DNA of 41,045 nucleotides from Candidatus Omnitrophota bacterium (GCA_024231025.1 JAAEQW010000197.1:1-41045); one strand, 5' to 3'. Counted from the stretch's first letter, positions 11,514 through 41,045 are shown. The notes: a model not told the origin generated them from the letters alone. Translations and numbers: made by a program.

Positions 11514-12274
11514 GACTTAACCATAAACTTGGCCAAGTTTTTTTAAAAGAGGCGCGCTCCATTAGGCGAATAGTTAATGCGATTGACATCAAGGATAAAG
11601 TTGTTTTAGAGATCGGTCCGGGTAGCGGTCGGATAACTCGCCATCTCCTGAAACAGGCCAAAATGGTGCATTGCGTGGAGGTCGATCGGCGATTAGTTGA
11701 TTTTTTGGATAAAGAATTTACTACTTATGCGAATTTTAAACTTAATCACTGCGATATTTTAAAATTTCCGCTAAAAAAAGTAGGAAAGCGCCTTGTAATT
11801 TTTGGAAACATACCGTATCAAATCAGTAAAAAAATAATTAATTATTTAATTGATCATCGCAAGTTTATCTCAGTTGCGTATTTAACTTGCCAGAAGGAGT
11901 TTAATCAAAAATTAGTTGCTTTACCGTCAAGCGGCCAATATGGCGCTTTGAGTTGTTATTGCCGGTATTATTGTGACGCGAAAGTCTTATTTAATATTGG
12001 CGCGCGGGCTTTTTCTCCGAAACCAAAAGTTGACTCATCATTGATTAAAATGAGTTTTGATCGTAAACCGCTGTTGGATGTAAGGGAGGAAGTAGCCTTT
12101 TTTGAGTTTGTCCGCAAGGCGTTTTCAACGCGGCGCAAAAAACTCATAAACTCACTCAAACTAAAGCGAGGGCGTGAATTGTTAGAAGAACTAAATATTA
12201 ACCCGGGCGTACGCGCCCAAAACCTCTCACTGGAGGATTTTGTTAAGTTGTTTAAAAACGACAGTAAGTTTTAA
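11510..12274 (+). CDS. rsmA: 16S rRNA dimethyladenosine transferase
   Basis: LGQVFLKE...VLEIGPGSGRITRHLL...VEVDRRLVDFL...IFGNIPYQIS...FSPKPKVDSSLIKM. Confidence 0.95.
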   Translation: MRLNHKLGQVFLKEARSIRRIVNAIDIKDKVVLEIGPGSGRITRHLLKQAKMVHCVEVDRRLVDFLDKEFTTYANFKLNHCDILKFPLKKVGKRLVIFGNIPYQISKKIINYLIDHRKFISVAYLTCQKEFNQKLVALPSSGQYGALSCYCRYYCDAKVLFNIGARAFSPKPKVDSSLIKMSFDRKPLLDVREEVAFFEFVRKAFSTRRKKLINSLKLKRGRELLEELNINPGVRAQNLSLEDFVKLFKNDSKF

Positions 12275-15200
12275 TAACTTCCTGCTTTAGCGCGCAATGA
12301 TGTTTCGCTAAAGATGTCTTTGATTTCTAAAATTTGCGCTTCAAACCCCGGGAAACTATCAATTGTTTGCCGGTCAACCTTATAGCTGTCGAAAACAGTC
12401 ATTCCTTGACCTTGAAGCTTAAGGGTAATTTCTCTAGTTAAGTCGATACCGCCAACTGCTGTATCTTCGGTTGTTGTTGCACCTGCTTTTTCGTGTGCAT
12501 CTAAAAGCGTTTCCATGTGTGCCGGCGATGCATCTTCAACTGTAACGTTAATTCCGAGGTTATCTTCAAGGAATTTTTCCAGTGCCTTAGGGTCTTTTTT
12601 GTCGGAAGGATTATCATTTTGTAAGTGTTCCCAAAGATTGCTGAGGCGGCTTGGATTGTAGCTCGCGGCTAAAGCCTCATTAATGAATGTCTCTAGTGAT
12701 TCTATCTGATCGGCTAATTCGCTTGGTAGATTATTTCTGCCAAAGGCCCATGAAATCGCAAAGATATCGGCATAATGATCCTCTAACTCAGCAAATGCTT
12801 TTTGACTCATTATGGGTATAAATGGTGGTTCTTCAAACCGTAGTTGACTGGTAAATTCAGGGTGGTGGTTTACAGAACCTGAGCCTGGAGCAAGTAATGT
12901 AGATGGTGGTTGTTCAAGCCGTCCTTGGCGGTGAATTTCAGTAGGTGGTCCTTCAAGTCGTAGATCTACAGCAGATTTGCGCCAGTCACTAAGGTCAGAG
13001 TGAGAGGGGGTAGTAATAACACCGCTTCTCATATGTTCATTCACGATTTCCATCAGAAAATGGCCGGTTTCATGACCGTCAATCAAGCGTCGTGCTTGTT
13101 CTGGGGTTACTTCATCAACGTTATAACCTAATCTTGCGAGATCTTCTTTGTGAGCCTCTAGAATTTCCTTTGTTTGTTCAGGGTTTCGAAGGAGGGTTGT
13201 GCCGCTTTCATTAGCGACAAACAACCCTTGAAGAGTTTTTCTGCCCCGAACCATTAGCACTTTTGTTTGAATGAGTGGCTTGGCTGGTGCTTGTGGACTA
13301 GCGGGTCCGAGGTTTTTTACCGTTATATGTATCTTCCCATCATTCTTTTTGCTCCAGGTCACTTCAAGCGTTATGCTGTTGTCATATGGCTTTTTTCTTA
13401 GTGCGGCGGCGATTGCCTTGCCAACGGCTCTTCCGTGTTCTTTGTTTAAATCTGATAACGGGTCAATGGCCGCTTTCATAATTCCGCCGTAATTTCCTTT
13501 TAGACCAGTTGTTCCGCTTGAAGGTTCGATTGTGCCGATTTTTTTTATTTCAATGGATATTTTTCCGTTGGTGTTGTGAGCGGTTATTTGAATTTTATCA
13601 CTCTCTTTAAAATTTGTGCGCGTCAGTGCGCCTTTAATTGCATCAGCAGTTGGTTGACCATATTCGATTGCGATTTTTCCAAGTTCGGCCATAATTCCGG
13701 GAACGTTTCCTACCCAGCTCGGAATCTTTGTGTTTTTGATGTCAACAGTGTAAGCAAAAGCATAACCCTTTCTTGGGTTTAGAACTTTTGCTGGACCTTG
13801 TTTTTTTACATCTTTAGGAGGTTGGGGGGGGGTTTTAGTTGGTATTACTCGTACACCATTTCGCGTAAAAGTTATCCAAAAGTATAATTTACCATTTGCT
13901 GTGGTATATTCTTTTTCGTGAGATTGTAATTCGATGGAAGCTTTTTCTCTTAGAAATGCACTTGTGTCACTTAAATTAAGTTGCATAATACTCACCAGAA
14001 GGTCAGAATAAGTTCCGCCCATGATTAAGGCGTCTTCTTCAACCTTTGGTGTTTTGTCGGGGTTAAATTGAGCAACATGGCCGCTGGCATCGGTGTTGCC
14101 GGTAAAGTCCATGTATTCATCTTGAGCTTTTGGCGCTTTTGCCATAGTTAGAGCTACGGTAGCGATTATAATTGCAAGAATTGATTTAAAAGTTTTTCCA
14201 ATCGTGCTGATTTTTGACATTTTATCGATTGGTTTTGTTCCGCTAGCTACAACGTCGCTTGTGTCAGCTACTATACCTCCCGAAAAATATCTGCGATTTG
14301 TGTATTGATTGGAGGAGGGGTCGTAATCCTTTTTAACATAATCATAAAGTCCTGTTTTGTACATTTCAACATATTGGTTATATATTTTTTCTTTTGCGTT
14401 GGGGTCGTCGGCAGTAACACCGGCTATCTTTTTTTTGTTTGCCGCAAGTTGGCTAACAATATGATCCTTAAGTTTCTTCTTAAACCACGTCGCAAGCAGT
14501 AGCGAGCGGTATATCTGGCGCAATTTAGCAAAGTTTTTGCCTTCGTTTACATCGCGTTCTATTTCCGGCAATATTACTTCGCGCATTATTTTTGAAGCAA
14601 TGTCATTTACGGCGTGCGGTTTACGTTCACTTTTATCTGTTAACTGTTTACTGTTGCTCAGCGCAAGATAATCTTGTTCCATCATTACTTTCAACTTACT
14701 TTCGGTGATGAATGCTTTATCCTTATCTTCATAAATACTTGCGCTTTCCGGCATGATCCATACCTTATTAAAGGTGTCAATTGGAATATTGGCGGTTCCG
14801 TAGGTTTCTTCGGCTTTTGCGTATATCTTTTGCCAATATTGCTGACCCAAATCTCCATCAGGGTAAATTAATGAAGAAGATAGCTTTTTTAACACATAAT
14901 CCTGAGCAAGCATATCCTGACCAAGATCGGTGCGACCAAGTTCGTTGGGAACAATGCGATCGGCTTCGACCGGGGAAAGGTTAACCCATAAGTCTTCTTC
15001 CGGCACCGTAAGACCGGCTAAGAAGTAATTTACGAGTGTTGCCGCTTCGTTCTTTAATTCTTCATCGCTTAAGATTTTATCCCCTTCTTCCATGATAAAT
15101 TCAAATTTAAAGGGGTTATCGGCGTATAATTTGATCCCCGAAAGCACTGGAGGCTGACTTTTATTGCTGGTATCGAGCAATTCTGCCGGTTTTTCCAGAG

Positions 15201-15339
15201 TTGCAGTTTGGGGGGTGTGTGCCGTATTTGGCCGATTTTGGATAATAACTGCGCTTGCACCGGCCGCGATGGCGATAATTAGGCAAACTGCGATAAAATT
15301 GAACGACGAATTCCCTTTTTTGAAGATAGTATGTCTCAT
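12271..15339 (-). CDS. Large envelope/secreted protein with prepilin-like N-terminus, conserved 'LWVNLSP' region, RRYFSGG motif, second hydrophobic segment and HExxH-containing C-terminus
   Basis: 1022-aa ORF; N-terminal KKGNSSFNFIAVCLIIAIAAG; GHETGHFLMEIV; paralogous to the CDS at 39492. Confidence 0.85.
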   Translation of the reverse strand: MRHTIFKKGNSSFNFIAVCLIIAIAAGASAVIIQNRPNTAHTPQTATLEKPAELLDTSNKSQPPVLSGIKLYADNPFKFEFIMEEGDKILSDEELKNEAATLVNYFLAGLTVPEEDLWVNLSPVEADRIVPNELGRTDLGQDMLAQDYVLKKLSSSLIYPDGDLGQQYWQKIYAKAEETYGTANIPIDTFNKVWIMPESASIYEDKDKAFITESKLKVMMEQDYLALSNSKQLTDKSERKPHAVNDIASKIMREVILPEIERDVNEGKNFAKLRQIYRSLLLATWFKKKLKDHIVSQLAANKKKIAGVTADDPNAKEKIYNQYVEMYKTGLYDYVKKDYDPSSNQYTNRRYFSGGIVADTSDVVASGTKPIDKMSKISTIGKTFKSILAIIIATVALTMAKAPKAQDEYMDFTGNTDASGHVAQFNPDKTPKVEEDALIMGGTYSDLLVSIMQLNLSDTSAFLREKASIELQSHEKEYTTANGKLYFWITFTRNGVRVIPTKTPPQPPKDVKKQGPAKVLNPRKGYAFAYTVDIKNTKIPSWVGNVPGIMAELGKIAIEYGQPTADAIKGALTRTNFKESDKIQITAHNTNGKISIEIKKIGTIEPSSGTTGLKGNYGGIMKAAIDPLSDLNKEHGRAVGKAIAAALRKKPYDNSITLEVTWSKKNDGKIHITVKNLGPASPQAPAKPLIQTKVLMVRGRKTLQGLFVANESGTTLLRNPEQTKEILEAHKEDLARLGYNVDEVTPEQARRLIDGHETGHFLMEIVNEHMRSGVITTPSHSDLSDWRKSAVDLRLEGPPTEIHRQGRLEQPPSTLLAPGSGSVNHHPEFTSQLRFEEPPFIPIMSQKAFAELEDHYADIFAISWAFGRNNLPSELADQIESLETFINEALAASYNPSRLSNLWEHLQNDNPSDKKDPKALEKFLEDNLGINVTVEDASPAHMETLLDAHEKAGATTTEDTAVGGIDLTREITLKLQGQGMTVFDSYKVDRQTIDSFPGFEAQILEIKDIFSETSLRAKAGSY

Positions 15340-39491: not shown

Positions 39492-41045
39492 ATGTTAAAA
39501 AACGCTATGTTTCGAAGGGGAAGTTTATCTTTTGAAGCAGTTTGCTTAGCAATCGTGGTTTGTTTTGTAGTGGGTATAGTATTTGTTGCCAAGGTTAAAA
39601 CTCCCGGTCAAGTTGGTTTAGTCAATAATGCTCACGCTGCAGTATACGGACTTCCTATACCAACAAAGTTGCTTCCGGTTACAGATAATCGCTCATATCC
39701 ATTGTTAAAAGGGATAAAAGTTAATCCCAAAGACCCTTTCCATTTAGAGTTTATCATTGATAGTCAGGATAAGGATGAAATTAGCAAAGAAGAGTTCAAT
39801 CGTTTGGTTGAGTATTTCCTGGCAGCTTTAACTACTCCGCAAGATGAATTATGGGTTAATCTATCACCTCATGAGCAGGATAGGGTTATTCCTCAGGATT
39901 TAAGCTATACAGAACTAGGAAAAGATTTATTAGGTCAGGACTACATCCTAAAGCAATTAACCTCATCTTTAACCTATCCGGAAACCGAACTGGGTAAAAA
40001 ATACTGGAAAAGACTACATGAAGAAGTCTATCAATTAGCCGGAACCACTAATATACCAATTAATACCTTTAACAAGGTATGGATTGTGCCCAAAAGCACT
40101 AGGATCTATGAAAAGGATAATGTTGCTTTAATTACTGAGGCAACCCTTAAGGCAATGCATGAGGAAGATTATTTTGCTTTAGATAAAGGAACAGCAAGCA
40201 AAGATCAGGATAAATCAAGTAAAATCAATAAACTATCTGCGAAGGTCTTAAAAGAGATTGTTCTTCCGGAAATTGAGTATAATATAAATCACGGCGAACA
40301 TTTTGCCAAATTAAGACAGATGTACCACTCCTTAATTTTGGCTGCGTGGTTTAAAAAGACTCTCAAAGATTCAATCTATCAGCACTATATTGACCAGAAC
40401 AAAGTTGAAGGTATCGATTTAGAAGATAGGGGGGCTAAAGATAAGATTTTTAATCTTTACGTTGAAGCCTACAAAAAAGGCGTCTACGACTATATCAAAA
40501 CCGACAAAGAGCCACAAACTAGTAAAAAACTAAGACGCAGGTACTGTTCAGGAGGTATACCAGCAGGAGAATTCGGTAATGTTGATGTCGTAACCCATGA
40601 TAATGAAAATGAAGCTGCCCTTGTCAGTGAAGAAATGAAAAAGAATGGCGCTGAGATGGGCACAGTCGGTCTAACCGGATCAAACGGCGAGAACCTAGAA
40701 GGAGACTCTACCGAAATAAATGTAACCGAAGTTGTCGGTTTCGATAACGTAGTAGAAGCGATGCGTGAGGAACACAAGCGCACAGGCAAAAAAATAAGAG
40801 CAGAATTCAATGGTGTCATTCTCGAGTTTACCGGTGAAGAAAGTAACGAAGATATGCTCAATGGCTTTAGGGAAAAGTGGAGTCAGAAAAATAAGGCGCA
40901 TAGAGATTCACCTGAAGGGCAAGCAGCTAAAAAAGAGAGAGAGGAAGCTGCCAGAGCATCAAACGAGAAAAAACAAGCATGGGAAAGTAAATTTGGAGAA
41001 TATAAAGAAAGTGATCCTGTTCGATGGATTGAAGCTTATTTGCAA
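39492..41045 (+). CDS. Second large secreted protein with prepilin-like N-terminus and 'LWVNLSP' region; truncated by window end
   Basis: Open from ATG 39492 to the edge; MLKNAMFRRGSLSFEAVCLAIVVCFVVG...ELWVNLSPHEQDRVIPQDLSYTELGKDLLGQDYILKQLTSSL...RRRYCSGG; alignable to the 12271-15339 product. Confidence 0.9.
   Translation, partial: MLKNAMFRRGSLSFEAVCLAIVVCFVVGIVFVAKVKTPGQVGLVNNAHAAVYGLPIPTKLLPVTDNRSYPLLKGIKVNPKDPFHLEFIIDSQDKDEISKEEFNRLVEYFLAALTTPQDELWVNLSPHEQDRVIPQDLSYTELGKDLLGQDYILKQLTSSLTYPETELGKKYWKRLHEEVYQLAGTTNIPINTFNKVWIVPKSTRIYEKDNVALITEATLKAMHEEDYFALDKGTASKDQDKSSKINKLSAKVLKEIVLPEIEYNINHGEHFAKLRQMYHSLILAAWFKKTLKDSIYQHYIDQNKVEGIDLEDRGAKDKIFNLYVEAYKKGVYDYIKTDKEPQTSKKLRRRYCSGGIPAGEFGNVDVVTHDNENEAALVSEEMKKNGAEMGTVGLTGSNGENLEGDSTEINVTEVVGFDNVVEAMREEHKRTGKKIRAEFNGVILEFTGEESNEDMLNGFREKWSQKNKAHRDSPEGQAAKKEREEAARASNEKKQAWESKFGEYKESDPVRWIEAYLQ

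Follow-up and report, generated by a model that had tools for sequence, protein, structure and literature searches.

A large family of putatively exported proteins with two constant ends and an exchangeable middle in Candidatus Omnitrophota

Here, we describe P0001, a 1022-amino-acid (aa) protein encoded at 12271-15339 in a 41,045-nucleotide stretch of DNA (the window) from Candidatus Omnitrophota bacterium (GCA_024231025.1 JAAEQW010000197.1:1-41045), which makes up an entire contig (C197, 41045 bases) of its assembly. We consider it probable, at roughly 0.6, that P0001 is one of about 40 members of a Sec-exported family of carrier proteins with two constant ends, between which the cargo is swapped as a cassette. 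As read from the sequences, the architecture is that of a fixed N-terminal module (N-module), an exchangeable middle payload and a fixed tail, with the payload lying between two double-glycine joints (..RRYFSGG and GGID..). A preliminary description of this DNA had proposed prepilin-like giant paralogues in which a shared trafficking part is followed by a divergent C-terminus. The frame that it reported is real and lies on the minus strand, which had been left unstated; the motifs that it quoted are found in both P0001 and a second family member of the window, P0002, and the paralogy of the two is well founded (46% identity over approximately aa 1-360, E 8.5e-101), with some 40 further copies in the genome, far beyond chance. 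The proposed layout holds in that a shared export part is joined to a highly variable partner, and the divergence is real; what diverges, however, is the middle, since both ends are constant and P0001 itself closes with a shared tail from aa 963.

The two ends were delineated by alignment. The N-module (alignment A1, 36 sequences) spans approximately 300 residues and finishes in a near-invariant RRY(Y/F)SGG. The second shared element, the tail, has about 60 residues and opens with GGID(L/F), its two glycines being the sole invariant columns. In the own genome of the window the tail profile matches 36 places, 34 of them with E < 1e-6, and a genome search with tail alignment A2 recovers the tail of P0001 (E 9.7e-17). 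Nearly all of these matches fall at the 3′ end of frames that carry an N-module, the others belonging to frames truncated at the start of a contig or neighbouring a broken copy, and for this reason we take the N-module and the tail to belong together. In other Omnitrophota the tail is present in 74 of 81 N-module open reading frames (ORFs) with a complete 3′ end, so that in these the cargo does not lie at the extreme C-terminus, and in one of these genomes (G241) 37 N-modules are accompanied by 36 tails, 35 pairs of which could be placed in one frame by matching frame lengths. No NCBIfam model of a C-terminal sorting signal of the type IX secretion system, PEP-CTERM or sortase kind matched P0001 or P0002, and the tail contains no transmembrane (TM) segment.

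The family is large and its payloads are non-uniform, rather than small with uniform C-termini. A search of the own 2.5-Mb genome with P0002 identified about 40 N-module genes in open frames of a few hundred to 6585 aa; the 46 module-bearing pieces, a few of which are contig-end fragments, together amount to 8.7% of the assembly. Across a phylum-level sample, 144 of 392 genomes had matches, with a longest open frame of 8365 aa (~25 kb), and three sampled genomes gave 88 (including fragments), 37 and 4 scored matches; the gene number of G241 is similar to that of the own genome. Despite the giant frames, most members are of ordinary size (800-3000 aa). The 80 named loci fetched all derive from metagenome-assembled genomes (MAGs), nearly all labelled Omnitrophota and one labelled only 'bacterium'. 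An origin of the module from a mobile element or phage was considered and rejected: phage records gave no match, plasmid records matched only in Streptomyces, and the genes at five weakly informative viral-contig loci resemble chromosomal ones.

The borders of the payload are sharp. Among 131 members, compared over 60 aa on each side of the SGG joint, mean identity drops from 51.9% before it to 18.1% after it, against a random-payload background of 17.1%, and where the modules of a pair are 70-100% identical, median identity past SGG is still 18.3%. The GGID joint displays the same step (31.8% vs 17.4%). At the DNA level, two genes of the own genome remain 87% identical over 467 bases, as far as the SGG codons at base 468, and are unrelated thereafter. 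In the own genome the joints make use of all four Gly codons, and their glycines are thus held at the protein level there; in the named loci the second glycine of GGID is mostly encoded by GGT. We interpret the sharp joints as cassette-like swapping of the middle, in which new payloads would be spliced between constant ends. A haphazard version of such exchange, in which captured genes are joined to spreading end modules on either side through mobile or repetitive DNA and most payloads lie idle, would fit the haphazard mix of payloads, the Tat- or lipobox-like signals inside giant frames and the palindromic repeats read in-frame within the N-module. It is nevertheless very unlikely in view of intact frames of thousands of codons across dozens of genomes and of active-site motifs that are likewise intact. 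Moreover, in an orthologous pair from two MAGs (L122/L128) the ratio of nonsynonymous to synonymous substitution rates (dN/dS) is 0.034 in the N-module, rising to 0.088 in the tail and 0.214 in the payload, which indicates purifying selection on all three parts.

How the proteins leave the cytoplasm bears on the prepilin proposal, according to which PilD would process them and the machinery of pili or type II secretion would assemble or secrete them. A part of the own-genome members do begin with a basic stretch, a glycine and a short spacer before a hydrophobic segment, and prepilin-like genes (PF07963) exist in the genome. Yet the residue at the presumed -1 position is split between glycine (15 of 36 own-genome members) and alanine (14 of 36), and at +5, where lysine (17) and arginine (8) prevail, glutamate is found in 6. 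Of the 18 genomic matches to the PF07963 profile, none is on the window contig. In relatives from other Omnitrophota, what precedes this module is an ordinary Sec signal peptide with A-x-A at its end (e.g. ..PLVQAQDYRLPMPGV), and signals of lipoprotein type are present in two members of the own genome. The prepilin interpretation is thus already contradicted and hardly credible, and an ordinary Sec signal or membrane anchor fits the family better. Further segments of lipobox-like, Tat-like or plain hydrophobic character were observed right after SGG or deep within giant frames (L051; L047:1625-5848; L061; L070; L052, ~aa 5112; window 14134-14190). From their sequences, these internal segments look like signal peptides that captured genes have retained.

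Structurally, the N-module of P0001 is predicted with confidence by AlphaFold2 (predicted local distance difference test 83; predicted template-modelling score (pTM) 0.82). Foldseek returned no match for this model in PDB (best E 7.9e-3, TM-score 0.14) or BFVD, the N-module profile matched no PDB sequence, and neither Pfam nor NCBIfam holds a family for P0001 or P0002; it is plausible that the predicted model represents a new fold. Distant relatives occur outside the phylum. Searching plasmid records by tblastn yielded six Streptomyces proteins (L194-L199) at 24-31% identity, and the homology between the Streptomyces and Omnitrophota cores is supported by hhalign over ~290 columns (probability 99.9, E 9e-32). 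These homologues, such as WP_121549542.1, WP_251091514.1, WP_331747086.1 and WP_266737726.1, are unnamed secreted, wall-anchored proteins. Their order is a Sec-type start, a variable N-terminal part, GG(I/V)DF, the core, GGVD(L/F)S and a TM or LAxTG-type end, one of them having a sub-threshold NCBIfam match to LAETG. By motif, the N-terminal parts are REase-like (ExK) in three, deaminase-like (HSE..CxxC) in two and unassigned in one, Pfam being silent on these toxin-like parts. The SGG joint of Omnitrophota aligns with the second GGVD of Streptomyces, and in both phyla the cargo ends directly at GG(I/V)D. Thus, the two groups share a homologous core, a Sec-like start and variable cargo abutting GG(I/V)D, whereas in Streptomyces the cargo precedes the core, the proteins occur in one or few copies with a C-terminal TM or LAxTG-type anchor, and there are no giant frames. 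Similarity between the tail and the opening hairpin of the Streptomyces core is suggestive only (E 5e-4, probability 31%), and a comparison of the tail with the Omnitrophota N-module itself gave no support (E 0.15).

With regard to the payloads, approximately 14 of the 37 pieces scanned in the own genome match Pfam. These comprise GAPDH and triosephosphate isomerase (TIM) in one protein, aldo/keto reductase, phosphoglucomutase, MutS domain V, PPDK, radical SAM, DnaJ, histidine-kinase ATPase domains, HAD, HEAT repeats, transglutaminase and methyltransferases. The 58 payloads of other Omnitrophota include enolase, glutamate and alanine dehydrogenase, FBPase, hexokinase, TIM and PPDK, as well as a response regulator, protein kinase, Fic and a trypsin-like domain. 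On visual inspection, the GAPDH, aldo/keto reductase, phosphomutase, DnaJ, radical SAM and MutS payloads seem to have intact active-site motifs. The genome keeps its own gapA and tpiA as standalone genes (contig C120), so the GAPDH and TIM payloads are extra copies, and a role of payload enzymes as replacements of housekeeping genes is rejected; at 45% identity to the genome's gapA, the payload GAPDH is too distant for a donor to be named. The two domains lie at aa ~1600-2420 of one exported giant frame (L054, C150:43414 onward).

The payload of P0001 matches no Pfam or NCBIfam model, and related payloads are found only at L047, L048 and L063 of the same genome. It carries the zincin-type motif HETGH together with EDHYADIFA, and its relative L047 has HETAH..EKLADIFA; at the level of motifs, it is most likely a metallopeptidase-like domain. 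The HExxH motif is enriched in the family more widely, with 19 occurrences in own-genome payloads against 1.7 in shuffles (in 10 of 39 payloads) and 19 against 1.9 expected in those of other genomes (in 16 of 100); non-family ORFs nearby contain 10 in 192 thousand aa. At L069 (C148), a frame of 4163 aa, the piece GVGAHELFHIQD occurs three times (aa 572, 1810 and 3036), an internally repeated metallopeptidase-like unit.

Variable cargo on a common export module, with unrelated payloads on near-identical modules, brings to mind a classical polymorphic toxin system directed against competitors, made of a trafficking part, a variable toxin and an immunity gene. Such systems (Zhang et al. 2012, PMC3482391) likewise combine a shared export part with exchangeable cargo and are diversified by recombination. 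The Fic and kinase payloads and the toxin-like N-terminal parts of the Streptomyces homologues would be in keeping with this. In contrast to those systems, the cargo of the present family is framed on both sides, occupying the middle rather than the C-terminus, and is largely metabolic, metallopeptidase-like or unassigned, the recognised payloads being mostly metabolic or signalling enzymes and not known toxin domains. Nor is there an immunity gene beside the window genes: P0001 lies between ksgA (RrnaAD) and proC (P5CR), and between it and these flanking genes there is no small gene of ≥80 aa and no adjoining immunity gene, a statement that applies to the window member only. We therefore judge a classical toxin system to be quite improbable.

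On the carrier reading, a signal peptide or anchor would take the protein out through Sec, the N-module would hold or sort it outside the inner membrane, and the tail would serve as a recognition tag or as a strand in need of a partner. More speculatively, cutting at both GG joints could free the payload to act outside the cell; such release of cargo at the glycine joints would be plausible. Most likely, the family supplies enzymes and effectors that are exported to act on neighbouring cells or on a host, an ecological role founded on published proposals of a host-dependent or predatory lifestyle for Omnitrophota (PMC10066038, PMC12419801). An extension of this reading, which we put forward tentatively and hold to be doubtful on balance, is an undescribed export-and-release system in which a new fold and the GGID tail would frame any cargo, this cargo would be exchanged as a cassette at the two joints, and the joints would be cut, freeing active enzymes, copies from central metabolism among them, beyond the cell or within prey or host.

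Similarly possible, and similarly short of probable, is a static arrangement in which the ends bind the envelope or one another and the payload loop is displayed, uncut, as a cell coat. Both ends are conserved, the Streptomyces homologues finish in a TM or sortase-type anchor, and giant Omnitrophota proteins have been proposed to act as coat or adhesins (PMC10066038). Modelled alone, the tail yields a weak, strandless AlphaFold2 structure (pTM 0.21), as expected of a segment that needs a partner. However, the retention of active-site motifs and the enrichment of HExxH exceed what a passive coat needs, and the tail is devoid of a conserved second anchor.

Several points weigh against a family of exported carriers with exchangeable cargo. 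Seven of the 81 complete ORFs lack a recognisable tail, although some of them have N runs or a diverged end. In some payloads, that of P0001 included, a hydrophobic or lipobox-like segment of their own comes directly behind SGG, which may affect the final topology. GAPDH with TIM, radical SAM and DnaJ are normally cytosolic and hard to reconcile with Sec export. No Cys or His is conserved in the N-module, which is thus not an obvious protease. Finally, the dN/dS values come from one clean pair only, and the zincin assignment of the P0001 payload rests on a motif.

Giant proteins of Omnitrophota are themselves not new. Giant ORFs with few annotated domains have been reported from this phylum, together with the proposal of a predatory or host-dependent lifestyle (Seymour et al. 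2023, PMC10066038); the present family resembles them in phylum, very long frames and paucity of annotated domains, but no shared two-ended architecture appears in the portions of that paper drawn upon, and our members are mostly of 800-3000 aa. The Lipocone study (PMC12419801) reads a gigantic secreted Omnitrophota protein with metallopeptidase, kinase/receiver, methylase and polysaccharide-enzyme domains as an anti-prey effector; it concerns the lipocone domain, and its relevant sections describe no constant N-module or GGID tail. In the open literature on giant Omnitrophota proteins we did not find the shared two-ended family, one giant-gene preprint of 2023 lying outside this scope. Our findings suggest a modular exported effector kind, with a fair chance of being more. 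Almost a tenth of a genome is devoted to a family for which Pfam and NCBIfam offer no model and the PDB no matching fold. Giant proteins of Omnitrophota have been described as poorly conserved and without known function; the ends found here are conserved and lend themselves to modelling, so that members can be counted and sorted by payload, which makes these proteins easier to approach. One shared module links a host-dependent candidate phylum with wall proteins of Streptomyces. The two-ended layout is suggestive of a modular system for placing many different proteins outside the cell, and invites the question of what reason a bacterium would have to export GAPDH, enolase or hexokinase.

Table 1. 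Positions of P0001, P0002 and their parts in the window
Feature	Position	Strand	Basis
P0001, family member, 1022 aa, single gene	12271..15339	minus	translation and family search
N-terminal hydrophobic segment of P0001 (Sec signal or signal anchor), preceded by FKKGNSSFNF	15241..15297	minus	hydropathy, family comparison
P0001 N-module, aa 60-355, shared module, predicted exported	14275..15162	minus	alignments A1, A3; AlphaFold2
SGG joint closing the P0001 N-module, where similarity stops	14275..14283	minus	
P0001 payload, aa 356-962	12454..14274	minus	no Pfam/NCBIfam match
Second hydrophobic segment of P0001, immediately past the N-module, TFKSILAIIIATVALTMA	14134..14190	minus	hydropathy
HETGH, zincin-type HExxH motif in the P0001 payload, aa 756-760	13060..13074	minus	
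ELEDHYADIFA, possible third-ligand region of the P0001 payload	12757..12789	minus	motif level only
P0001 C-module (tail tag), aa 963-1022, first residues GGIDLT	12274..12453	minus	alignments A2, A4
P0002, second family member, 518-aa frame, cut by the contig end	39492..41045	plus	
P0002 N-module, aa 60-355, last residues RRRYCSGG	39669..40556	plus	alignment A1

Within the window, the P0001 gene is convergent with ksgA, the two having four bases in common. At the other end, the start of an ORF of contig C127 overlaps the window's end by 130 identical bases, and this ORF itself finishes in a tail, GGIDLDYSQ... In one further locus of the family, L042 (C274:56753-62549), a frameshift between N-module and tail seems to have broken the gene into a 499-aa frame and, after it, a 1541-aa frame. 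A palindromic element, CGGGGACATGTACCG..CGGTACGTGTCCCCG, lies in-frame within the variable loop of the N-module (G000 contigs C90, C116, C148, C274, C297, C327, C336 and C357; loci L044, L063, L067, L069, L062, L068, L049, L070 and L065). It resembles the palindromic elements inserted in Rickettsia proteins. Its half-site has 16 exact copies in the genome, none in the window and about 10 of them in N-modules.

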